From NCBI GenBank assembly GCA_021234155.1, contig JAJEKV010000225.1, positions 622,001 through 686,000 of the forward strand: a DNA stretch of 64,000 nucleotides. Reading direction: 5' to 3'. Origin of the DNA: Isoetes taiwanensis. Its lineage: Eukaryota; Streptophyta; Lycopodiopsida; Isoetales; Isoetaceae. The position numbers were made by a program, and so were the translations under genes. Shown here in pieces: positions 1,081 to 31,949 of the stretch (position 1 is the stretch's first letter; every line of letters begins with the position of its first letter). Under the pieces are notes generated by a model, which saw only the letters and a list, made by a program, of their open reading frames with translations, did not search any database and was not told where the DNA came from.

Positions 1081-2290
1081 GCCTATTCTATTCTTTCGAG
1101 ATGGCTCGCAACAAGCTAGACATCGTGCGACTGGACGTGCAAGGAAGGCACAAAACGAAGGTTCGACTGTGCAGTTGCATCCAGAAGGCCAGAGTTACCC
1201 CATGACACATGTTTGAGGGGCAAACAATTGATCAAACATTCGGATACATGCTATGTCTAGACTAGCACGCTAGCCAAGGAGTGCATTGGGTGGAAGGTCG
1301 AATAGTTTCCCATATTAAGCCGGTCATAATAATTGGTCCTTAAAGTAAAAGGAATGCTCTGGACTCATGCATGAAGTCAAAATTGCATTTCGAGCTCACT
1401 AGAGAGGCTTAACTATGGGAAGACGCCATTTCCCCCTCGTGGCCTTACGTCAGAGGGGAAATTTGGGGGTTAGCACATCCGTGCAGTGGATGTCCATCTT
1501 TTCTTTTTAGAGACATTTCATAGGATATAAGCTACCATTTGAACAATGGGATTAGGAGATGACGCGATTTTGATGCCCTGACACCTAAACCCTACTAAAT
1601 CATTAGGGTTTAGGTTTTGGCAGCCTTCCCTGCCTCAGAAGTGGTCAAGAGCTTGCGTGTAGGGTTTTCTCGAGGGTCGAAGAGAGAACCCAAGAGAGAG
1701 AACAAAAAAATCCTCCTTGGGCACTAGTTTCAAACTTGCCCCCTCGCGATTGATCAAAAGTTCAGATACATGCTATGTCTAGACTAGCATGCTAGCCAAT
1801 GAGTGCATTGGATGGAAGGTCGAATAATTTCCCATATCAAGCCGAGTTTGGTTATAGATGGTCATAATTATTGGTTCCTAAAGTAAAATGGATGCTATGG
1901 ACTCATGCGTGAAGTCAAAATTGCATTTCAAGCTTGCTAGAGAGGTTTAACTGTGGCAACACGCCATTTTCCCATCGTGCCCTTACGTTAGAAAGGGGAA
2001 AATTTGGGGGTTAGCACATCCGTGCAGTGGATGTCCATTTTTGCTTTTTGAAGACATTTCATGGGACATGAGCTACCATTTGAATGGTGGGATTAGGAGA
2101 TGCTGCGGTTTTGGTGCCCTGACATCTAAACCCTACTAAATTTGTAGGGTTTAGGTTTTGACAGGCTTTCCTGCCTCAGAAGCGGTCAAAAGCTTGCGTT
2201 CAGGGTTTTATCAAAGGTCCGAAGAGAGTGCCCAAGAGAGAGAACAAGAAAACCCTCTTTGGGCACCGATTTCAAACTTGCCCTTTCGCG

Positions 2291-2455
2291 ATGGCTCGCA
2301 ACAACCTAGACATCGTGCGACTGGACATGCAAGGAAGGCACAGAACGATGGTTCGACTGTGCAATTGCATCCAGAAGGCCAGAGTTACCCCAAAATACAT
2401 GTTTGAGGGGCAGACAATTGATCAAACATTCGGATACATGCTATGTCTATACTAG
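2291..2455 (+). CDS. Short repeat-unit ORF, 54 aa, unknown
   Basis: Starts MARNNLDIVRLDMQGRH and ends FGYMLCLY. The same frame is kept in the unit at 3573 and, with mutations, in those at 1101 and 2914. The unit at 1101 has a stop soon after the shared RVTP motif. I recognise no domain. It may be a first exon or a chance frame carried by the repeat. Conservation of the start and of the MVRLC-CIQK block across units is the only argument that it was once coding. Confidence 0.3.
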   Translation: MARNNLDIVRLDMQGRHRTMVRLCNCIQKARVTPKYMFEGQTIDQTFGYMLCLY

Positions 2456-3410
2456 CACGCTAACCAAGGAGTGCCTATAGATGGTCATAATAATTGGTCC
2501 CTAAAGTAAAAGGGATGCTCTGGACTCATGTGCGAAGTCAAAATTGCATTTCGAGCTCGCTAGAGAGGCTTAACTGTGGGAACACACCATTTCCCCTTCG
2601 TGCCCCTACGTCAGAAAGGGGAAAATTTGGTGGTTAGCACATTCGTGCAGTGGATGTCCATTTTTTCTTTCTAGAGAAGTTTCATAGGATATGAGCTACC
2701 ATTTGAATGGTGGGATTAGGAGATGATGTGGTTTTGATGCTCTGACACATAAACCCTACTAAATCTATAGAGTTTATGTTTTGGCAACCTTCCCTGCCTC
2801 GGAAGTGGTCAAGAGCCTGCGTGCAGTGTTTTCTCGAGGGTCCGAAGAGAGAGCCCAAGAGAGAGAACAAAAAAACCCTCCTTGGGCACTAGTTTCAAAC
2901 TTGCCCCCTCGCGATGGCTCGTAACAAGCTAGACATCGTGTGTCTGGGCATGCAAGAGAAGCACGCAACGGTAGTTCGACCGTTCAATTGCATGCAGAAG
3001 ACCAGAATTACCTTAGAACACATGTTTGAGGGGCAGACGATTGATCAAACATTCGGATACATGCTATGTCTAGACTAGCACGCTATAGCCAAGGAGTGTG
3101 GAAGGTCGAATAGTTTCCCATATCAAGCCTAGTTTGGTTATAGATGGTTATAAGAATTGGTCCCTAAAATAAAATGGATCTCTGGACTTATGCATGAAGT
3201 CAAAATTGCATTTCAAGCTCGCTAGAGAGGCTTAACTATGGGAACATACCATTTCCCCGTTGTGCCCTTACGTCTGAAAGGGGAAAATTTGTGGGTTAGC
3301 ACATCCGTGCAATGGATGTCCATTTTTTTCTTTTTGGAGACGTTTGATGGGACATGAGCTACCACTTGGACGGTGGGATTAGGAGATGGTGCGATTTTGG
3401 TGCCCTGACA

Positions 3411-3437
3411 CCTAAACCCTACTTAATAGGGTTTAGG
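3411..3437. promoter_or_regulatory. Telo-box inverted repeat (perfect 11 bp arms)
   Basis: CCTAAACCCTA at 3411-3421 and TAGGGTTTAGG at 3427-3437 with a 5 base loop. Each arm holds the plant telo-box AAACCCTA. A perfect 11 bp version with a longer loop is in the unit near 1590; those near 2130 and 2750 are degraded. In plants telo-boxes are bound by TRB/Myb-type factors and sit near start sites of translation-related genes; that role here is inference. Confidence 0.6.
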
Positions 3438-3572
3438 TTTTGGCAAGCTTTCCTGCCTCGGAAGTGGTCAAGAGCTTGCGCGCAAGGTTTTATCGAAGGT
3501 CCGAAGAGAGAGCCCAGGAGAGAGAACAAAAAAACCCTCATTGGACACCGATTTCGAACTTGCTCCGTCGCG

Positions 3573-3719
3573 ATGGCTCGTAGTAAGCTAGACATCATCC
3601 GATCGGACATGAAAGGAAGGCACGGAACGATGGTTCGACTATGCAGTTGCATCCAGAAGGATGGAGTTACCCCTAGACACATGCGTCGGATTGCCAGGTA
3701 CATGCTATATCTAGACTAG
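3573..3719 (+). CDS. Short repeat-unit ORF, 48 aa, unknown
   Basis: Counterpart of the 2291 ORF in the last array unit. It starts MARSKLDIIRSDMKGRHG and keeps the MVRLCSCIQK block, but has lost the MFEGQTIDQ segment by a small deletion and rejoins the frame at YMLYLD. No known domain; function unknown. Confidence 0.28.
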   Translation: MARSKLDIIRSDMKGRHGTMVRLCSCIQKDGVTPRHMRRIARYMLYLD

Positions 3720-3760
3720 CACACTAGCTAAGGAGTGCATTGGGTGGAAGGTCGAATAGT

Positions 3761-5490
3761 TTTTGATATCAAGTCCGAGTTTGGTTTGATTGTGCAATTG
3801 CGTCCAACTCTCAAATTCATATGTATACAACACAAGTTTTGGAATTGCAAGTTTGTGCAAGGGAATAGTTGGCTCATTGTTTACATTAGCCTGAGCAACT
3901 CGATATTGCGAGAAGGGTTAGGCAATTACATATTGTGTGGCGCCATTTTACATGCTTGTCGATGTTTGTGGGGATTAAAGTAAGTTTATGAATTCCATAA
4001 GACACAAAGTAAATAGTGGTTCTCCCTAATAGATCAATGGTAAACACAACCTAGATATTTCCAAACACAAGAAACTAGCCATCCATTTTTAGCATTATAC
4101 TTTTTGTGAATTTGAACTGTAAATCCATTGTTTGTGTCATGCAAACAAATAATACGAGTTTTCATTCAGAAAAGAATCATTGAAACTATCATTAGAGTAG
4201 GAATTATTATGTGCAAGCAACTTTTAAATCCCTCCCCAAACCCATTCTACCCTTTGCTCCAAGCCTCTACTGCTAGTTGTCCCCAAGTTTTCACCACACC
4301 ATGGCTAAACACTCAAATTGGCCACTCAATTAGTCATGATCGAGGGGCACCTGCAGATGATCTAACCGAATTTGTGAAACTGAATATAAAAATATGGTAA
4401 GGGATCTAGTTGAATTTAAATAATTAATTGTACAAATATGGTAGGGGATTTAGAGGAATTTATAGAAAAAAGTGTATGTATGGTAGAGGGTGTATCTAGA
4501 GTTTCAAAAAAAATCCTATAAGGGTTTTTTTTTCTAGTTTTTTTTTTACTATATAAGGGTCGTTTTCTTTAACTCCGTGCATGCACATGCCATTTGGGCT
4601 TTACATTAGCTACATCCTCTAGGTACAAACTGCAGGGTGCAAAAATGGGAATTAGTTATTAAATAGCATGGTTCAAAAGCAATAATTGAGGTTTTAGAGT
4701 AGTTATACTACATTTTGAAGCAGTATGAGAAAGGACACAAGGTTTTTGAACTTGTGAACTCTCTAGAAGGCCTTGTACCTAAAGCCGGTCCACTAAATTT
4801 TGCTTCCTGGTGGCAGGTAATGTGCTTTATTTTTTGCCCCAACTATTCTTTTCTATTCTAAAGTATTGGACTAGGCTTGCAAATTTTGTTGACAATGTAT
4901 GGCTGTTATATGTCAAAAAATATGGACTTTTGAATGATCAAAGAAAAAAAGATATTGTTTTTATTCATGGTTCTTGAACATAGTAAACTTCTTTAAATTT
5001 TGCCATTATTCATCTAGGGACTATAACAAACCATTACTATTTTTTATAAGCTGGCAATAGTTTTTATAAACCACAATGGTACACAAGTCTTGTAATAAAA
5101 ACATCTCATTAACTATGACCAGTTTTAGCAAACCACTGTAACATTAGAACTAGCATTATTAACCATGTTCTAAGCCACTGTAAGTTTTGACAGGCCACTA
5201 TAGGATGTGGTTTTCTTCTATCAAATAAATTGCCGTATAAAAAACTACATCTATCATGGTTTCTAGATGGTTTGTTAATGCTTTTATATGGTAGTTCATT
5301 TTTGGGGGCCTTCTCTCCTTCAATTTCCTTATGCAATCAGGTTTCAGATACTCGAACTGTCGAAGGCGAATTTTGGTATCAGGATTCTGATATACAAACT
5401 GTTGATAAAGCTCAGACTGCAATAACAAAAGCATTAAAGACCATGTTAGCAAAATGATGTTGGCAACCAGATGCCAAAAGAGTATTGAAC
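3761..5490. other. AT-rich stretch, no gene supported
   Basis: A few frames of 80-90 codons occur but show no domain, repeated pattern or splice logic. Homopolymer A and T runs are common. I see no terminal repeats that delimit an element. Confidence 0.4.
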
Positions 5491-20918: not shown

Positions 20919-22017
20919 CTACTTGTCCTGCTTGCCGAAATTTGCGTTGCCTTGCTTTCCATAGCTTGCGTTGTACTGAGGTCTGGTAGCTGCTGGGCTG
21001 TAACTTCCTGTAGCCTTCCCCTTGTCTTGATAGTATTGTTGCCTCGGTCCACTCCCTTGAGGTCCTTTTCCTTGCAAGCTCACTGCCTTGGATTCTGCTT
21101 CTGCCACTGTTCTGGGGTTTATTGCTCTCACCAGCTTCTTGATCTCTTCGTTCAAGCCTTCAATGTACCTCTCCACTACATGTCTTTCACTCAATTTTGG
21201 CACATAGAGCCTCAGCCTCATGAACTCTTCTGTGTACTTCTGGACTGTCTTATTGCCCTGCTCCAGCCTTTAGAACTATTGCATCATATGGCACTTGTGT
21301 TCCCTTGGCACATAGTGACGCTTGAATGCTTTGGCGGCTTTGGCGAACTTCTTTAACCTGCAGCTATCTCTGCTTAACCCATGGGCTTTGGCATAGCCTT
21401 TCCACCAAATCCTGACTGCTCCCTTGAGGTTGGTTGTTGCTACCCTGCCCTTGTCCTTATCCTTCATGCTATAAGCATTCCCATACTCCCTCATTTCATC
21501 CAACCATGCCTCGGCTTCCATTCCAGACCTGTTGTCCCATGAGAACTGTTCCAACTTCCTGGCTTTCCACACGTTGCTCAGTGCCGAATCGACTTTCTTC
21601 TGATAGTCTGCTTCCATTCTGCCTCTATCACGGTTGGGTGGGACCCTCCCGACGGTCCTGTCGATCGTTCTCCTGCTCTTCAGATTCAGAGTTGGAGTCG
21701 AAACTAGAGTTGGAGGAATCCGTGCTTGGTGATCTCCTTCTCCGGCTTCTCTTCTTTGCTTTGTCTGCTCTGCCAGCTGGTGTTTCATGTAGTTTGACAT
21801 TTTGGTCTGGTCCCATTGCTGCCGCTCCTGCCAGCAAGGCTCTTATTTCATGGATGTCCGATCTTATCTGCGATATTTCTTCTTCTGGGGTTGGTGCCTC
21901 AAACTCCTTGAACAGGTTCCTTGGCTGAAATTGCCTTGCGGGTGTTTGGTCTTCTAGAGGTTGTCTATCTTGTTCCACATTCCTGGATGCTCTAGCTGCA
22001 TATACATTAGATTGCAC
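20919..22017 (-). pseudogene. Ty3/Gypsy-type gag, frameshifted and 3'-truncated
   Basis: Three minus-strand frames join: 22017-21628 (RNVEQDRQPLEDQ, an acidic/Ser-rich segment), 21700-21276 (SALSNVWKARKLEQF, AEAWLDEMREYGNAY, AVRIWWKGYAKAHG, FKRHYVPREHK) and 21250-20919 (FMRLRLYVPKLSERHVVERY, IEGLNEEIKKLVRAI). The A-x-x-WW...F...F...Y-x-P pattern and the following EF..LR...P...E....F..GL are the retrotransposon gag core. The Gln/Gly-rich tail ends at a MITE before any zinc knuckle. Frame breaks lie near 21640 and 21270. Confidence 0.8.
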
Positions 22018-22040
22018 TCTGATGATTAGCTTTTTGTTTG

Positions 22041-23297
22041 TTATTGCATTTTTTTGTTTGATGATATAGTTGTGGGGACAAAATATATCAAAAGAACATA
22101 CATAATACCATCACTTATATTCATAAGATATAATATTTTTACGTTCAATAATAGAGATAGAGAATTAAAAAGTTTAATTCTATTCCTGAAATCTTCTATA
22201 AGTGGGTTGTCCTCCAAGAATTTCTTCACTTGGGCTGTGCCGACTGTTCGCTCCAAGTTCCTAAGGATGTTGGTGGTTGTGCCTCCTTGGAGTGCTGTCG
22301 CCAAGTCTTCGACCATCCTTTCCGATATGTAGGCTGCGGTGACAGCCAATTTACCCTGTTGCCTATAAGGGACCGCAAAGGCGAAGATGCTTAGAGCTAT
22401 TGTCCTCTTGACCAGGATGACATGGTCGATGTTTGGGGCCATCCGGGCATGTCTTCCGAATCCTGAGAGGGCAATCAGCATAAAAACCTCTTCTTCTCCA
22501 CGTGGGCTGAATTGGCGGTGTATGACTGCTACCCTTCCATTAGTGAGCAGTGGCAAGTAGAACCTGAGGGCTTTGTCGTACCCTGCCTCCCCGGCCTCCT
22601 CTCCGGTTCTGATTGCACCCCTGTGTCTTTCGGAGTATTCGTCCACCGGTACTGCTATCATCTCCCTGTAGTCGCCGAACATGGACCTAGAAGAGGTCAA
22701 GTTGATACCGCCTCTTTCCTGTCCGACTGGTGCTACTGCAGAGGTGCTGGATAGGAGTGCACTCGTTGCTTTCCCTCTGATTCCCATCCGCACTTGGATC
22801 GCTATGAACTCCTCCTCTGAGGGTAGCTCCTGCTGAGCCATCTTCTGCGTAATGCCGGTGTATGTTTCAATATCTGTTGATGACTGGCTAGTGTACGGCT
22901 GGGCCTCCCTTATACTGATGGAGAAGTCTTGAGTCCTCCAGTCGATGAAGTCATCGAGGTCGGGCTGCTGGCATAGGAGGTGTAGGAGCTCGTCTATCCT
23001 GTAACCCCTGTCCCTGCACTCGAGGAGGTTCTTGATGTCGTGTAGGGTCAGGTATGCTTCTCCTTGAATGATAATCAGGGTTAGACTCGTGATGCCTAGC
23101 CCAAGTGGTGGAGTTGTCCTTGTCGCTCTTAACCCTTCTTCGAAGCTCGGGAGGTCTTCTTCGGCTTGCTGCCTTTCTTGTGTGGGGTCGATGTCGATGA
23201 TGTCTTCCACGTCAGACCCACGTCCTTCCTCTTCCTCCACCTCCGCCTCTTCGTACTCCAGAATCATCTGCTCCTCTTCACCTGCTTCCATGGCCAT
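22041..23297 (-). CDS. Unrecognised 418 aa protein upstream of gag
   Basis: The longest natural-looking frame in the window. It starts MAMEAGEEEQMILEYEEAEV with an acidic N terminus, followed by an ordered-looking region (YREMIAVPVDEYSERHRG, KALRFYLPLLTNGRVAVIHR, EEVFMLIALSGFGRHARM, VKRTIALSIFAFAVPYRQQG, YISERMVEDLATALQGGTTT). The last ~50 residues come from AT-rich DNA and may be intron or non-coding sequence. It ends 23 bp before the gag frame on the same strand. I recognise no domain. An all-helical structural or nucleocapsid-like protein is conceivable but unproven. Same-strand packing with gag and the H3-like ORF suggests one element. Confidence 0.55.
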   Translation of the reverse strand: MAMEAGEEEQMILEYEEAEVEEEEGRGSDVEDIIDIDPTQERQQAEEDLPSFEEGLRATRTTPPLGLGITSLTLIIIQGEAYLTLHDIKNLLECRDRGYRIDELLHLLCQQPDLDDFIDWRTQDFSISIREAQPYTSQSSTDIETYTGITQKMAQQELPSEEEFIAIQVRMGIRGKATSALLSSTSAVAPVGQERGGINLTSSRSMFGDYREMIAVPVDEYSERHRGAIRTGEEAGEAGYDKALRFYLPLLTNGRVAVIHRQFSPRGEEEVFMLIALSGFGRHARMAPNIDHVILVKRTIALSIFAFAVPYRQQGKLAVTAAYISERMVEDLATALQGGTTTNILRNLERTVGTAQVKKFLEDNPLIEDFRNRIKLFNSLSLLLNVKILYLMNISDGIMYVLLIYFVPTTISSNKKMQ

Positions 23298-23362
23298 GGG
23301 CTCAAGCTCTAGGGATTAGGGTTCTCCTATCTGGGTTTGGGTTCTTTGGGACAAGAATATAG

Positions 23363-23830
23363 CTACAGCTGCAGTGTAGGAGAAATATCTCCTTCTATTA
23401 CAGCTACAGACATGTAGTTGGGCATGCGAGTAGCCTTATTTTCTAGGTACTTGTCTGTCTTTGGAATGTTCTGCAGAGCTGCACGAAGAGCCAGCATGGG
23501 TGCAAAGTATCCTATGCAAGGGGAAAGTTCTACAAAAGAGGGCCCTATCTTGGCATGGAACTCGGTCATGATCTCTTGGTAGTAAGGAGTAGCATTGATG
23601 GTGGCATCCACATCGATCTCCTTCTGAAAAACAACGAAGACCGAGTCAATGTCAGCTTCAGCCACATGAGCAGTGGCATTGTACCATCGCCTGAATGCAG
23701 AGGTTGCCATGATGCTAGAGCTGCTAGGGTTATCAAACAGATATGGAAGTGCCTCTGGGAGCTGAAAAATTGCCTCGAAGTGAGGAGCAATAGAATAGGG
23801 TGCAAATGAGGGTTTGGGGATGTCTATCAC
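23363..23830 (-). CDS. Unrecognised 155 aa protein, same strand module
   Basis: Reads MIDIPKPSFAPYSIAPHFEA, with AFRRWYNATAHVAEADIDSV, YYQEIMTEFHAKIGPSFVEL and YFAPMLALRAALQNIPKTDK. It lies 65 bp upstream of the 418 aa ORF in the same direction. No domain recognised; the composition looks like a folded helical protein rather than chance. It may be one exon or ORF of the same element. Confidence 0.45.
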   Translation of the reverse strand: MIDIPKPSFAPYSIAPHFEAIFQLPEALPYLFDNPSSSSIMATSAFRRWYNATAHVAEADIDSVFVVFQKEIDVDATINATPYYQEIMTEFHAKIGPSFVELSPCIGYFAPMLALRAALQNIPKTDKYLENKATRMPNYMSVAVIEGDISPTLQL

Positions 23831-23950
23831 TTTGAGGTGCTACTATGCAATTTCTAGTAATCTAGGTTAAAGAATGCACCCTAAGGATCCTATTGCAACA
23901 AATTTCATCTAATTTGGAGGTAGTTGGGATGAGTTAGGGCCATTGGTCTG

Positions 23951-24226
23951 ACCACTCACACAATGCGCGAGAGCCATTTTCAAAAGGTTTGGAAGTGCTC
24001 CTGGCGCACTCTGTGAGGGGTGGGCTCCTGTTGGGTCCAAGATAGCTCAAAATGTACAATCTAAGGGTAGAATCCTACCTATCTCGGCGAGTTAGGGCAG
24101 GTTGTGTCCTTACTTTCTACATTTGGCCAAGTCTGGGCAGAGATCAATGGCCGACCACTCACACAGTGCACGAGAGCCATTTTCAAAAAGTTTGGAAATG
24201 CTCCTGGTGCACTCTGTGAGGGGTGG
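23951..24226 (+). repeat. Two copies of a ~205 bp repeat with hairpin arms
   Basis: Copies start at 23951 and 24155. Each holds CCACTCACACAATGCGC and, about 35 bp on, GCGCACTCTGTGAGGGG, which pair as a 17 bp inverted repeat with 3 mismatches. Two further copies lie at 26393 and 26606 in the same orientation, on the other side of the H3-like ORF. Confidence 0.85.
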
Positions 24227-24270
24227 GGTCAAAAACATTGACTTTTTGTCCAAATTAGTCAATTCCAAAT

Positions 24271-24947
24271 CAGGGATAGGTTCAATACGCTGGACGTTTT
24301 ATACGGAATATGTATGAATTGTATGATACGGCAGATATTTGTCGTATAAAACGTATAAAATATGGCAAAAAAAAATTCCGGCGTCGGAAGATTTTTGCGT
24401 ACGCGCAAACATCTAATTCACGTATGCGAACGCAAATTTTTTTTTCCTTTTTCCGCGAAACCTTCTGTTTTGCATACGCGAAAGTTTTTTTGCGTACACA
24501 AAACAGAAGGTTTCGCGTACACGGGCCCGCGTACGAATTTGAAATTTTAATTTCGCGTACGCGAAATACTATAAACCGCGTACGCAAAACGTTTTTCGCG
24601 TACGCGAAACTGTATAAAGCGGGTAGCAAAAAAAAAGTTTTTTTTTTTACGAATTTGAAATTTGAAAACCGCCGCAAACGCGAAATCTTCTGTTTCGCGT
24701 ATGCGAAAGTTTTTTCGCATACGCAAAACAGAAGGTTTCGCATACGTGAACGCCCCGAAAGGAAAAAAATAATTTTTTTTTTCACGTACGCGGTTTTTAC
24801 TGGTTCGCGTACGCGGAAAAACTTCCGCATACGCAAAAAAAAATTTTTTCGGCCGGCGAACTTTTAATACGTTAAATACGTAATACGTATTTTTTTTTAT
24901 TTTATACATCAGGAATTTGAATTTTGTACGTACAGAACCTATCCCTG
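24271..24947. mobile_element. hAT-type MITE full of ACGCGAAA palindromes
   Basis: Terminal inverted repeats CAGGGATAGGTTC / GAACCTATCCCTG start with CAGGG as in hAT elements. They are flanked by an 8 bp duplication with one mismatch (TTCCAAAT at 24263-24270, TACCAAAT at 24948-24955). The interior is built of TTCGCGTACGCGAAA-like palindromes repeated in both orientations and separated by A or T runs, so the whole element can fold back on itself. Frames across it read repeated FAYAK/RTRN patterns and are not genes. Confidence 0.85.
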
Positions 24948-25092
24948 TACCAAATGCACATGTCATTAATACAACCTTAATACTTTTGGTCAAAACATAT
25001 TTTTATATTTACAAAAGGTTCTGTAGTTACAATAAGTTAGCAATCTTCCTTTTTAATAAACCTAGCTAATTTCATATCTCTAGGCATACAAG

Positions 25093-26173
25093 TTATTCTC
25101 TTTGCATGGAGAGCAATGCTAGAGAGTCTTCGAAGTGTTGGACTAGTCTTTGCTTTGCTGCCTCCTGCAACGCGAGTAACATATCATCTGTCACACTCTT
25201 GGTTTTGTCGAATTATTGCAGGATGTCGCGGGTCAATCTTGCGAAGGCAGCTCTAGGTATCAGTAGTCCGTAGCTCCTCTGAGAATGACGGATCTCCCGA
25301 GCAGCTCTCGCAAAATAGGAGTCCGCCTTTCTCTTCATCGGCTCTTCGGGGGTACGGGTCTTTCTGGGGGTGGCTTCAACGTGTTCTTCTTGGATGGCCT
25401 TCCTCCCTCCACGTACTTTACCTTGTGTTCCTCATAGTATTTGGAGTACTCCTCGTATATTTTCATGTACTCGTTTTACTCCTTCAGCTTCTTTCTGTAC
25501 TCTCGCTCATGCTTGAGTACACAAGACTCTCGTGCCGGCCTGCCCTTCTTCGGATCTGTTGTTGGCTTCGGCCACTTGGGGTATGGGGGAGCTGTTGCGG
25601 ACTCTTCCTCCTCGTCATCTACATTCGAGGGTCCCGAGCCTTCTGTTGGGCGTGGAACCCCTGACTCATCCTCATTTAACTCAGTGTCCGATGACGACGG
25701 CGGTCTGTCGGGCTCCTCCTCCCTTATGCTTACCCCTTTCGCTGGTCTCGACTTTATCTTGCGTCGGGGTTTCTTGGGCACCTTTGAATCCTTCCCTTTG
25801 TCTTCCCTCAACTTTTGGCATCTCCCCGCAATCTCTTCTGCTCCAGCTTCTCTTCAATCCTCTTTCTCTTTATCGCTCTCTTCCTCTTTGCCATCCTCTT
25901 CAACTTACTTACCAGCTCCTTGGGTAGTACTTCGTCCTCGTCATCCTCGTCCTCTCCTCCATCGCCCTGATTCTCGGGGTTTTCCTGCTCTTCAGGGTTC
26001 TGGGGGTTTTCTTCCTAGTCCTACTGCTCTTGATCCTCCTCCTCAACATCAGGATTCGTGCCGGGGTTCTCTTCTTGCCTGGCTCGCTCCTGAGTCTGTT
26101 GAGCTGCGAGGACCTGGGCGCTGATATAATCGTCTGGTACTACCATTCGAGCAGTTTGTTTGGTGCGGGCCAT
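25093..26173 (-). pseudogene. Histone H3-like ORF: H3 tail with K9M, long insert, H3 fold lacking helix 3
   Basis: From the ATG at 26173 it reads MARTKQTARMVVPDDY. Residues 1-8 after Met equal the H3 tail; residue 9 is Met, not Lys. An acidic Gln/Glu-rich tract follows, then a basic LKRMAKRKRAIKRK segment, PKKPRRKIKSRP, an acidic Ser-rich tract, a charged Tyr-rich helix and TPRKTRTPEEPMKRKAD. The C terminus aligns without gaps to the H3 fold: REIRHSQRSYGLLIPRAAF, ARLTRDILQ-stop-FDKTK, LLALQEAAKQRLVQHFED. It stops at MQRE, where H3 would continue into loop 2 and helix 3. Defects in this copy: TAG at two codons near 26020, a 1 bp loss in an A run near 25812, TAA near 25473, a frameshift near 25400, and TAA near 25215. 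About 360 codons. No host histone resembles this. Function is inference. Confidence 0.8.
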
Positions 26174-26392
26174 GTTTTAAAATAAGTTGATCGCCTTCCG
26201 AGCGCCTAAAAATCGCCTTGTTGGACAGAGAGCAGCTAGCTGGAGAAGGAAAGTGGAAATGAAGAACCCTAATGGTCTATATATATGTCTGGGGATTTTA
26301 GGGTTTGGACCTGCAATTTCATGTCGTACCATTCTGCAAAGCATTAGTGTTTGTAGAATCAATACATTGGGTTTGTTTAGGCAAAAAGTGCC

Positions 26393-26678
26393 CACCACTC
26401 ACACAATGCGCGAGAAGCATTCTCAAAAGTTTTGGAAATGCCCAGGGCGCACTCTGTGAGGGGTCACCTCTTTTTTACTCAAACTTTCATTTTATAAACA
26501 GGTTCTTAGTGTTATAACATACATTTCTAGCTCAAATTCAAGGTTTAAACTGCCCTGCACTATCAGATTGCTCTAATTATGCATCTATCTAGGTCAAAGT
26601 GGGTCCACCAATCACATAGTACGCGAGAAGCATTCTCAAAAGTTTTGGAAATGCCCAGGGCGCACTCTGTGAGGGGTC
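26393..26678 (+). repeat. Two more copies of the ~205 bp hairpin repeat
   Basis: Copies at 26393-26465 and 26606-26678 match those at 23951 and 24155 (CACAATGCGCGAGA(A/G)(G/C)CATT(C/T)TCAAAA, GCGCACTCTGTGAGGGGT). They lie just upstream of the H3-like ORF start, so the ORF is bracketed by direct repeats. Confidence 0.85.
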
Positions 26679-26699
26679 ACACCTTTTTTGCTATAATTT

Positions 26700-28400
26700 T
26701 TCAGGGTTTTCCTATTTTTCTTCTTAACTTAGCATTATTCTATTTTGCTGCTCTAAGGATTGGAATTTTTTTTCCCAATTTTCGAGGTTCATGCCTGGGT
26801 TGCTATTTCCAAGACTGGAAGTCTACTGTTAGTTCTAACAGGGAATGGTCAGTGCTCGATCTTGGTCTACCAAGATCATGCTCTATTACCACTATGACGT
26901 CCCCTACTTCCTCTACAATACTCCCATCGTATCAAAAGGCGGAGTTCATCCCCCTGGTAGCCAACCTGATAAGGGCCATCCACCTGACACCAATCCTTGA
27001 CAATGGATCAATGAGGAAGAATGGATGGGGCATTTGCCCCATCTTCCCTCGGGGTCATCCTAGTTGCGGAAGCGTAAGTAAACATAAGCACATGACATCA
27101 ATATACATCAACAAAGTCACCTCGACGGGTGACCACATCATAACATACCTGTTATAGCATATCAATAACATCATCATCACATGGGTGATCCTACCAAAGG
27201 GCTTAGACTCCAAAGGTATGGACTGATGGCTTGGGCCTCCAGAAGTCAATGCAGACAGAATTCATGGCAAATGGGTTGGGCTGGTATAGGAACATGGCTG
27301 TTGGTTAGTCCACTCCATCCTCCCATCCCTTGCACACTTTGCAGAGTAGGTTGAAGAGTCTTGGGACTGGACCGTAGCCTACGGGGTGCATAGCCAAAGG
27401 GGCTACTGCTGGGTTGCATCTCCCCCGTCCCGATGAGGCAGGAGGAGAGTCTTCTCTCCTCCAGAGGCATGCAGCCCATCACAGGTGGCTAGAGAGCCAC
27501 TGCCCGTATTCGACTTGAACCTCATTGAAGGTGCGCATCACCCAAGAGGTGTCGAGCTCATGCCTTGCCTACATATAGTGGCCAGCTGAGATCCCCGGTA
27601 GGCTTTACACACCAGAGGGATCAATCAGTGATGGGACAAGTCCTCCTTATTCCACTGGTCTAGCCCCGCCACCCATAACCAGACGGGCTCTTATACACGG
27701 GCCGCATTAATTGGGAATTAATTAACTAGGATCATCTGCTACTAAAGGTTTCAAGGTCTCTACCCCCCTTTCCACATACACAGGAAAGCATAGAATGGAC
27801 ACCACCACATCAAAGATCAACATCAAAGACTGAAATACTGAATAAGATCTAATCTATCTTACCTAATCATATCTTTCATTACGGCTGGTGATCTTAGGAT
27901 CTACAAGGCTGATATGACTGATCTAACATGCTATCCTGACTCATTGCCGGGCTAAGAGGCGGCTTTGCCCAATAGAATTGCAAGTTACCTGATCCTTGGC
28001 TAGCTCCAGCTCCCCGGATTGCGTCCATGCCTTCATTCTTGCTGAAGACTGCTGCTCCTGATGAATCTAATGTGCAAAGGCGGCTCAGCGGCACCTGGCA
28101 ATGCGAAATGACAGCTTGCCTTAGCCGAAATGGCTCAGAGAAGCCCAAAATGCGAAAGAAGAAAGGTTTAGAGTTTTCCCCTTGGTTCCTTATATGTGAT
28201 CTTTTAGGGTTAGGTTAGAAGGGACCAAAAGGGGTATTGCCACTTGGTAAGGGGGTTTTAATTGCATATGTTTAATATACATGCGCAACATACGAGGTTG
28301 CCCCCCCAGGTGCAACCTTTTACGGCTCTCAAGTACTTGTCGTGGTGATATGTACGTGTGATGTGGCAGTATAATATACGTATTCGGATTGTATGTTATG
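26700..28400. other. No gene supported; possible retroelement untranslated/LTR sequence
   Basis: No convincing frame. A GC-rich 27.2-27.7 kb stretch (CTCCTCCAGAGG, TCCCCCGTCCCGATGAGGCA) looks like LTR or leader sequence, but I cannot pair it with a second copy. Confidence 0.3.
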
Positions 28401-28408
28401 CTGGAACG

Positions 28409-29254
28409 TCACAAGTAATCAGACACAGTTTCTCCATCATCCTGCTTAACAAGATCCCACTCCTTTTGTAATATTCTATGATAATTTGCAGGCAAATAAT
28501 GGGCTTCGAATGCACTACAGAATACTGTCCATGAGTTAACCTCAGGCTGCATTAATATGCGGCCTTGCCACCAAACTTGTGCTTGTTCATCCAGATAAGT
28601 GTCCATGGCTTGCAGTTTCTCTTGTTCAGTCGCGTTAACTCTCTCAAAGAACTTCTCCCAAATTCCTAGAAAACTTATCACCTGCATCAGCTTAAAAGCT
28701 ACTCTGCCACTAAAGTATGGCAAATCCACTTTTTCGAACCATTTAGGAGCCTTGTCCTTCTTATTTTGGGAGTCAGTTTTTGCAGTAATCATAAGATCTG
28801 GATTGGCGTTAATTGGTGCTGGATTTACTGGTAGCGGAGTTTTAGATGGTGGCGGATTGCAGGTGGGGGGTCTCTGGGTAATGGAGGTTGCTGAACATCA
28901 CTGGGTAAAAATCCATAAAGTAGAGCAATCTGCTCTAGTTTTCATGCTGATAATCTTCTGGAGATGTAGGTGGTGGCAGTGCTATCTGATTAGCAATTTC
29001 TTTGCTATAAAATCAGCAGTTCTTAATGCATGCTGATACTGGCTTTCAGAGATATTGAAATGATGAGCCATTAGCACAGATTCTAGGAAAACTGGGCTTG
29101 ATACCAAAATTGATGCAAAAACAAGTAAACTTGGAAAATATAGAGAAACAAAGTTGACAAAGTCAATATTCCAGTCTGTAGGAGTAGTATTACCACCCAA
29201 CCAGCTCAACTTTACGCAAGAACTGTTATCTTGCCTTCTCAACTTAAGCATCAA
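28409..29254 (-). pseudogene. Second Gypsy-type gag remnant
   Basis: The best part (28792-28409) reads APKWFEKVDLPYFSGR, LDEQAQVWWQGRILMQPEV, NSWTVFCSAFEAHYLPANY, EWDLVKQDDGETVSDYL: the Ty3/Gypsy gag core (P.F.G...A..W......F......W..F...F...Y.P). A further frame at 29254-28982 (MLKLRRQDNSSCVKLSWLGG) may be the preceding part. It is clearly diverged from the gag at 20919-22017, so a different family. Protease and later domains are absent. Confidence 0.75.
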
Positions 29255-30560: not shown

Positions 30561-31345
30561 GAGAAGATGAAAAGGCCTTTGTTGCTGATACAAACCGCAC
30601 TCGCGGTCATGATAGAAGCTGGGGCCGTGGTGGTGATAGTCAGCAAGTGGCTAGACTTGAGCAACCTAAGTCAGAGACTGTTTGTGCCAATTGTAAAAAG
30701 ATGAATCTTACTGAAAGAGAATGTTATTATAAATGCTTTGTTAATGAGCATAAAACTTTACTCCAGGCAATCCAAAATATTCTAGATGAACATGCAAGTG
30801 TTGCATGTGATGAAGCTTCTTAAGCTGCCTTTTCTATAGGAACTGTTGTTTCCATGACTGTTGATTCTGGTGCAACATAGCACATGACTTTTCATAAGCA
30901 TTGGTTGAAGTTAGGGACTTGTGTTTCTTGGTGATAACATGACCCATGAGGTCAAAGGCATTGGAGATCTTCTTGTTAATACTCCCAGTGATGTGCAAGT
31001 CTTGCGTTGCATTTTACATGTACCTGGTTTACGTCGAAATCTTATTTCTATGTTTAGTCTTGCTGATCTTAGTCTATCCATATACTTTGATAGACAAACA
31101 GATGTGTATTTGGAGTTGCCCCGAGAAAAGGTCAGTGGAGACGAATCAAGTGCACTTTGGCATCATCATTTTGTACATGTTAACTTTCAATATTTATTGG
31201 ATATGGCCTCTGATAGAATCATGGATGGTCTATTATTGAGTAGCACTGCATCAATGGGTGTATGTGAGGTGTGTGCTGTTGGGAAGCAACTCCGCCGTCC
31301 TTTCAATGTAAAAGGAAAATGCACAACACAGCTTTTGGAGCTTGT
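30561..31345 (+). pseudogene. Copia copy B: gag end, protease, pre-integrase
   Basis: Reads FVADTNRTRGHDRSWGRGG (gag tail), CANCKKMNLTERECYYKC (decayed zinc knuckle), then TVDSGAT-stop-HMTFHKHW, the Copia protease active site DSGATxHM with a stop. From 30921, FLGDNMTHEVKGIGDLLVN leads into the GAG-pre-integrase HHFVHVNFQYLLDMASD and VCEVCAVGKQLRRPF. A frameshift lies near 30915. The frame ends at a MITE insertion. Confidence 0.85.
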
Positions 31346-31949
31346 CATGGAATAATTTAAGGGCTAAACTTAGCTATTTGGCGATTTTTTAGCAGATTTT
31401 CAAAAAAAAATTGGCTAAAGTAAATGGAAAAAATTGGGAAAAAAATTATATTTTTAGCTTAACTTTTTTCGGGACTGTGCCAACCCTGGAGCTCTTTAGC
31501 CAAATGCTAGAAAGTAAGAGAGTGAAATTTTGTATTGTTTAGCTAAACCATAGAAACTTTTGGAATGGATTTCGGGCTAGTTTAGCTAACATCATTCTAG
31601 TTTATGTGAAATATATGATTAGTAGTTTAGTTTCTTGCATTATGAATTAATTTGAGTCCTAGATTTTGCTAATTAGTATTGTTTTAGAATGTTTTCACAA
31701 AGAAAATGACTAAAATAAGTGGGATATATTAAAAAACAAGGTATAGTAATTCGGCTTAATATTTTCTGTTGTCTGCACCATAGAAATTTTTGGGATGATG
31801 TTTGGGTTAGTTTAGCTAAACGCTAGAAAGTATGAGAGGAAAAATGTGTACAATTTAGCTAAACGACAGAAAGTTTTGGGATTAAAATCGAGCAAGTTTA
31901 GCTAAAGTCATTCTGGCTAATAAGAAATACGCGATTAGTAATTTATTCC
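31346..31949 (+). mobile_element. MITE with TTAGCTAAA repeats, copy 2, 11 bp TSD
   Basis: Starts CATGGAATAATTTAAGGG and ends AGTAATTTATTCC. It is flanked by TTGGAGCTTGT at 31335-31345 and 31950-31960. Removing the element with one copy of the duplication restores the Copia frame (...QLLELVCADIYGP). A 9-11 bp duplication suggests a Mutator-like element. Interior TTAGCTAAA repeats; no genes. Confidence 0.88.

Follow-up and report, generated by a model that had tools for sequence, protein, structure and literature searches.

A Ty3/gypsy chromovirus gene of Isoetes taiwanensis as a candidate mimic of histone H3 with lysine 9 replaced

Why should a reading frame in the genome of the lycophyte Isoetes taiwanensis open with the tail of histone H3 and then carry methionine in place of lysine 9, the residue whose methylation silences plant transposons? 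The frame lies in a stretch of 64,000 nucleotides of contig JAJEKV010000225.1 (the window, whose own coordinates are used throughout), and a preliminary description of its letters had proposed that it starts a gene of a mobile element that might interfere with silencing. Here we consider what the gene is, what its relatives keep and lose, and which functions are consistent with both.

The window gene and its element

The frame opens on the minus strand with the ATG at 26173–26171 (MARTKQTARMVVPDDYISAQVLAAQQ..., also written MARTKQTARMVVPDDYISAQ), as sequence and ORF reading agree, and what had been described as its beginning holds: the initiator and H3 residues 1–8 (MARTKQTAR) occupy 26147..26173 exactly, and the residue-9 codon at 26144..26146 is ATG, placing Met where H3 has Lys9. 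A linker of ~280 residues with abundant Glu, Asp, Lys and Arg separates the tail from the histone fold, its first part (25811..26143, frame 0) interrupted by stops and its second (25476..25810) read in frame 2. The fold itself, also on the minus strand, falls into three pieces: alpha-N and alpha-1 in frame 1 (25216..25335), alpha-2 in frame 1 (25096..25212, placed by tblastn with the L001 fold and the L033 ORF, from two other copies of the gene) and alpha-3 (ALHAKRITCMPRDMKLARFIKKEDC) in frame 0 (25040..25114, matching L033 at 92%). The final codon is thus at 25040, followed by a stop at 25039–25037, and of the span 25093..26173 first assigned to the gene the start stands and the end does not. 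Two pieces match the Pfam Histone profile PF00125, at 26.3 bits (E 9.3e-6, over 25216–25428) and, for alpha-3, at 18.5 bits (E 0.0025), both below the curated cut-off of 26.4 bits, and the alpha-2 piece (25096–25212) alone had no Pfam match. Because the reading from tail to fold shifts frame and meets stops, the window copy is broken, as the preliminary description had it.

Two trivial origins can be set aside. Under a uniform model the exact eight-residue tail is expected ~1e-7 times after any of the 2976 ATGs in the window, and this expectation, together with the recurrence of the tail in the other copies read, rules out chance. A host H3 pseudogene is ruled out by the tail and linker common to other copies and by the position of the gene behind a long terminal repeat (LTR); the 15 host H3 loci detected at 96–98% with a canonical H3 query are separate genomic places.

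This 5' LTR (TGTGACGTTCCAG...CGTCATA, ~1.52 kb, minus strand, 26893..28413), upstream of the gene, is recognised as such because it matches the 3' LTR of a relative, the C1056 element (658 of 919 columns identical, 72%), and it bears out the assignment of the gene to a mobile element. As a query (26890–28413) it returned 41 genome matches including itself, with 40 of 7491 first-look candidates scored; 28 of the 41 span at least 1480 of the 1524 bases, the others standing at 84–90%. The LTR apparently sits in the end of the gag ORF of another element (28412–28897; PF03732, 8.4e-8), which ends at the LTR. Just inside it, sequence reading finds a degenerate primer-binding-site-like sequence, GTGGTAATAGAGC (26880..26892, minus strand), which we take to resemble a PBS of the tRNA-Met type.

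A repeat search on the same strand found two direct repeats of ~106 nt in the leader (26382–26487 and 26595–26700, spanning 26382..26700) and, beyond the H3 ORF on its downstream side, a second pair (23939..24247) that is 70–73% identical to the leader pair, such that pairs with a spacing of ~203–213 nt flank the ORF on both sides. A divergent copy, L003, has a pair, perhaps of a different sequence, spaced 203 nt after its H3 ORF (L003:599–901); these ~100-nt pairs are possibly regulatory. Palindromic short repeats of CGCGTACGCGAAA-like units lie between the H3 ORF and ORF2 (24280–24870).

Further along the minus strand follow ORF2 (~150 aa, 23366..23839, from ORF reading) and ORF3 (~410 aa, 22044..23297), both without a Pfam match, and an interrupted gag region (20989..22110) identified by blastn to L003, for which Retrotrans_gag reached only E 0.14. 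ORF3 is conserved in the C1056 element, where pieces in the divergent copy are 52–62% identical to it; its predicted structure was uninformative (mean pLDDT 33.8), and its candidacy as a viral nucleocapsid was dropped for lack of support from profile searches. By blastn, window 20989–23810 is 67.5% identical to L003 (C1056), and since this similarity stops at 20989, pol and the 3' LTR are missing or displaced in the window copy. Elsewhere in the window are a Copia-type gag-pre-integrase fragment (30915–31352) and a direct-repeat array with spacings of ~540–660 bp (1093–3786).

The gene order of the C1056 element, which has breaks, is the H3-like gene, ORF2/ORF3/gag-like sequence, protease, RT, RNase H, integrase and chromodomain, so that here too the gene stands ahead of gag-pol. 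ORF domains in L003 comprise RVP_2 (5.3e-10), RVT_1 (8.2e-23), RT_RNaseH_2, Integrase_H2C2, rve, SH3_Tf2-1 and Chromo (PF00385, 3.3e-10). Its 3' LTR (C1056:5540458–5541834, borders drawn by eye) follows a purine tract, the PPT-like AAGGTGGGGAGAA, and no 5' LTR was found within 9.2 kb upstream. We classify the family as a Ty3/gypsy chromovirus, with the pol order taken from one relative (L003) and the window copy ending after gag. With Ty3/gypsy chromoviruses and aORF LTR retrotransposons it has in common LTRs, gag, PR, RT, RNase H and an integrase with a C-terminal chromodomain; it differs from the chromoviruses in extra ORFs before gag, the first of which is the putative H3 mimic. One LTR pair, in C1026, is identical in 1253 of 1328 columns (94.4%, K2P 0.059), the second LTR being partial. 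From LTR end to H3 ATG the distance is ~714–718 nt in C1044, C1086, C922 and C1080, ~599 nt in C1026, ~630 in C1067 and larger in C994 and C1038, and some LTR matches lie downstream of the gene or have no tail match nearby. The family is apparently very abundant in the genome and looks like thousands of copies.

Residue 9 and selection across copies

Searching the genome with the 50-residue window tail gave 688 first-look candidates, 150 of which were scored, all at E≤3.1e-7. The window's set comprises 91 of these loci: the 30 best, 60 of the other 120 (mostly with stop-free frames) and L001; L083 is misframed, and residue-9 counts therefore rest on 90 tails, nearly all from the window's subfamily. 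K4 is kept in 91/91 and the exact MARTKQTAR in 51/91. The preliminary description had asked whether Met9 is conserved: it is the commonest residue in the 90 tails (61), accompanied by Ile in 15 (codons ATC 8, ATA 6, ATT 1) and Val in 14 (GTG 12, GTA 1, GTT 1), and hence not universal. Residue 10 is Val in 86, Ile in 3 and Pro in 1, and the residues after position 9 read VVPDDY, or PRED in L001, as against STGGKAP in H3.

The L001 tail as query yielded 921 first-look candidates, with 150 scored (E≤1.1e-7), at places that differ, as judged by eye, from those of the window-tail set. Seventeen tails of this sister subfamily, picked for long frames, have Val (13), Ile (1), Leu (1) or Lys (2) at residue 9; all 17 keep K4 and R8, and 12 are exact for MARTKQTAR. 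Lysine at position 9 in related copies had been named beforehand as evidence against the proposal, and it was encountered in part, in those two sister tails and in none of the 90 of the window's set, so that loss of K9 is frequent without being universal. Of the 107 tails read, drawn from some 1600 candidates by a similarity-ranked search that favours conserved, query-like tails, 105 have an aliphatic residue (M, I, V or L) at position 9.

Uninterrupted copies, which the preliminary description had suggested looking for by tblastn, do exist: seven of the 91 loci (L010, L033, L041, L042, L046, L047 and L071) read through from tail to fold, six with Met9 and one with Val9, and three of them have local damage. 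In alignments L010 is without five fold residues and linker stretches of L041 and L071 look frame-shifted; L042 has Trp in place of R8, and L046 resembles L047 at 97.6% in the stretch compared. Tail and fold also travel together as had been supposed, a fold being detected at E<0.01, marginally in a few cases, in 75 of the 91 loci that have the tail. Open linkers of this class of gene (class A), such as that of the L046 ORF, contain a segment, KSTPAKGV, that resembles the K27 region of H3, KSAPATGGV.

Among six open copies (L047, a near copy, was excluded) dN/dS was 0.106 for the fold, 0.25 for the linker and 0.29 for the first 16 codons. This is a real gene that exists in many copies, some of them uninterrupted, and it evolves under purifying selection. 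Changes in the tail were mapped on a phylogeny of the 90 copies built from DNA outside the tail, in which several long branches with an unlike downstream part make local placements weak. Codons 1–8 underwent 71 synonymous and 46 non-synonymous changes, and 44 of the latter fall on terminal branches, as expected because the copies are dead, and 2 on internal ones. Codon 4 had zero non-synonymous changes, and T6, A7 and R8 had 16, 10 and 17 synonymous changes with 5, 5 and 8 non-synonymous ones, all terminal and none internal. Decay as the cause of the altered tail is ruled out by the dN/dS values and these tree-mapped codon changes. Codon 9 saw nine non-synonymous changes, four of them internal; each is reconstructed as Met giving way to Ile or Val, and parsimony places 8 steps at this residue with I or V at the root. 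Given that a change from ATG yields I or V with a frequency of 0.54 in the spectrum measured in the linker, nine such changes in a row have a probability of ~0.004, a crude value in that the direction of change is uncertain and the search favours query-like tails.

The H3 fold in two classes of gene

The L001 fold matches PDB H3 at E 4.8e-24 and PF00125 at 1.9e-26, and class A folds are identical to H3 at 45–46 of 88 positions in a gap-free alignment. The alignment keeps many H3 positions, which serve contacts with H4 and DNA. The contiguous H3 tail ARTKQTARKS is absent in class A, in which residues 1–8 are exact, K9 and S10 are replaced and ~280 aa precede the fold. CENH3 is marked by a lengthened loop 1, and this identity is rejected on loop length, since loop 1 is gap-free against H3 and not lengthened. 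For class A, a Foldseek search with the AF2 model, whose mean pLDDT is 55.5, found no match at E≤0.001, and the model therefore lends the fold no structural support.

With 150 of 9022 candidates scored, the canonical H3 query found, besides the 15 host genes, 135 further matches at 71–86%; in a count made by eye, about fifty of these lie within frames of at least 400 residues. Class B was defined by reading four of these 135 (L095, L096, L097 and L098), the fourth stretch being too short to tell. In the three copies read, the ORF starts MA[I/N]TK and continues through an unknown domain of ~290 aa to a C-terminal H3 fold, and the K9 tail of H3 is absent. The fold is identical to H3 at 75 of 88 positions in L095, and that of L096 matches PDB H3 at 2.8e-53. 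The N-terminus of L097, AITKSAPDPST, shares A1, T3, K4, S10 and T11 with H3, and may perhaps be a decayed H3 tail. Downstream of one class B ORF, visual comparison finds an ORF3-like ORF and a related gag, and because class B adjoins such related ORFs and gag, H3-fold genes can be placed, by their neighbours, in a like slot in two element classes. A BLASTP comparison of the class B protein with class A ORF3 found no likeness.

A control query with H4 gave 69 first-look candidates (9022 with H3) and 43 matches, comprising 16 full host genes and fragments; repeated H4-like fragments (residues 36–79, 59–61%) lie in short frames in C1036, C667, C1077 and C1049. Among IMG/VR viral contigs, 62 pattern matches included zero relatives by tblastn.

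A possible anti-silencing role and its alternatives

We give about an even chance to the reading in which this Ty3/gypsy chromovirus gene encodes an H3 mimic that cannot be methylated at K9 and whose Met9 and Ile9 copies may trap H3K9 methyltransferases. The H3-like fold would pair with H4 and bring the protein into nucleosomes, or the protein could stay soluble; either way the tail would show the QTAR motif read by H3K9 methyltransferases while offering no methylatable lysine, and the chromatin of the element would become refractory to H3K9 methylation. In Met and Ile copies the tail would, in addition, trap SUVH-type enzymes in the presence of SAM, as happens to Clr4 and G9a with H3K9M, and the peptide ARTKQTARMVVPDDY is a predicted binder or inhibitor of plant SUVH SET domains. 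The anti-silencing action that we infer would result in a period for element transcription before silencing.

One study reports that H3K9M acts dominantly in yeast, where its presence in a single one of the three H3 genes blocks H3K9 methylation throughout the genome, that the peptide ARTKQTARM... binds the SET domains of Clr4 and G9a SAM-dependently and inhibits Clr4 in vitro, that residues 3–12 of the H3K9M peptide are seen in a G9a crystal with SAM, and that S10 phosphorylation weakens binding of the tail by Clr4 (PMC5030085). At K27, M and to a lesser degree I are described as lowering H3K27me3 via PRC2 (PMC6562757, PMC6061380), and in the relevant part of one of these reports M and I were the only residues that lowered methylation (PMC6562757). 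In favour of an inhibitor, the window's set retains TKQTAR, has S10 replaced and carries Met or Ile in the pocket position in 76/90 tails; in the sister set the proportion is 1/17. We know of no inhibitor with Val or Leu at residue 9, which are found in 27/107 and 1/107 tails of the two subfamilies, and because Val is without known action, the Val9 copies, together with those having Lys9, count against a simple inhibitor for the whole family. Standing against the mimic are also the two Lys9 sister tails, class B without a K9 tail, the non-H3 residues after position 9 and Trp8 in L042.

A natural 'oncohistone', in which H3 would have been captured, K9 changed to Met or Ile and S10 to a non-phosphorylatable residue, the product imposing a dominant block on H3K9 methylation that aids amplification, is a tentative proposition with somewhat less than an even chance. 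It would share with the oncohistones (H3K9M, H3K27M/I) an H3 tail with K9 changed to M or I; unlike them it is natural and element-encoded, has other residues after position 9, a long linker and a fold matching H3 at 45–46 of 88 positions, and its activity is putative.

Less probable, although still to be reckoned with, is an unmethylatable H3 variant that traps no enzyme, replacing H3 on the chromatin of the element itself or of new cDNA, where any residue 9 other than lysine would keep H3K9me readers and their feedback away. Such a variant would accommodate the finding of M, I, V and L alike at residue 9 and the many H3 positions kept in a gap-free fold; yet neutral change from M should also have given T, L, R and others, whereas the window's set has only I and V, and the two K9 copies and a ~280-aa linker unlike that of ordinary H3 are likewise difficult for it. 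No H3 with a linker of ~280 aa is known to us. Val would be tolerated by the variant, and inhibitor and variant both fit an anti-silencing purpose.

We think it unlikely that the tail functions as a peptide to which readers or writers of H3K4 or H3R2 dock, serving transcription or integration near active genes, with residue 9 drifting among hydrophobics. K4 in 91/91 and 17/17 tails, well-kept A1–T3 and the presence of K9 in some copies would be expected of such a peptide, but T6, A7 and R8, which lie outside the usual footprint of K4 readers (A1–K4), had no non-synonymous change on internal branches, and a K4-reader role alone is therefore insufficient.

Quite improbable is a structural role within particles or the pre-integration complex, where the H3-like protein would condense cDNA and its tail would be proof against modification that attracts the chromodomain of the element or host readers. 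The position of the gene upstream of gag, the chromodomain of the integrase (PF00385, 3.3e-10) and the class B fold without a tail are in keeping with this role, which leaves the exact tail unexplained. In a manual alignment to HP1, moreover, the L003 chromodomain keeps 1/3 cage aromatics, so its binding of H3K9me is doubtful. A review assigns the cage and H3K9me binding to group I chromodomains, the prevalent kind in non-seed plants, and describes group II as lacking the cage (PMC12786077); if this chromodomain is of group II, the tail does not serve to dodge the element's own chromodomain. Passive hitch-hiking of a non-functional H3 fragment captured and amplified with the element is scarcely credible, for all that 84 of 91 loci cannot be read through from tail to fold and three of the other seven are locally damaged, given the fold dN/dS of 0.106 and the near-absence of non-synonymous change in the tail codons along internal branches.

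Parasites that use histone or histone-tail sequence include influenza (the NS1 tail), bracoviruses (H4) and giant viruses (histones); we know of no viral histone or mimic that represents an H3 of an LTR retrotransposon with another residue in place of Lys9. The VANC proteins of VANDAL transposons are likewise transposon-encoded and are reported to counter silencing in a sequence-specific manner, and geminivirus TrAP is a parasite-encoded inhibitor of a plant H3K9 methyltransferase. We know of no histone likeness in VANC, nor, to our knowledge, is TrAP a histone mimic in sequence. For TrAP the enzyme inhibited is reported to be SUVH4/KYP (PMC4606454). The word 'histone' is absent from the main text of an aORF review (PMC7264820) and, by term search, from the main texts of the genome papers of I. 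taiwanensis (PMC8566536) and I. sinensis (PMC10541799), and among the open-access papers listed on element-encoded histones and anti-silencing, judged by title and the opening of the abstract, no description of a retrotransposon-encoded H3 came up.

A retrotransposon that encodes an H3 of its own, the tail of which is under selection, thus appears to be undescribed, even without the inhibitor step. If the mimic is true, a transposon has turned the K-to-M trick of cancer histones against the silencing mark that controls it; chromatin mimicry by retrotransposons would then have a case open to testing, the copies would provide naturally sampled residues at H3 position 9 (M, I, V, L and K), and the abundance of this class of element in a lycophyte genome might be explained.
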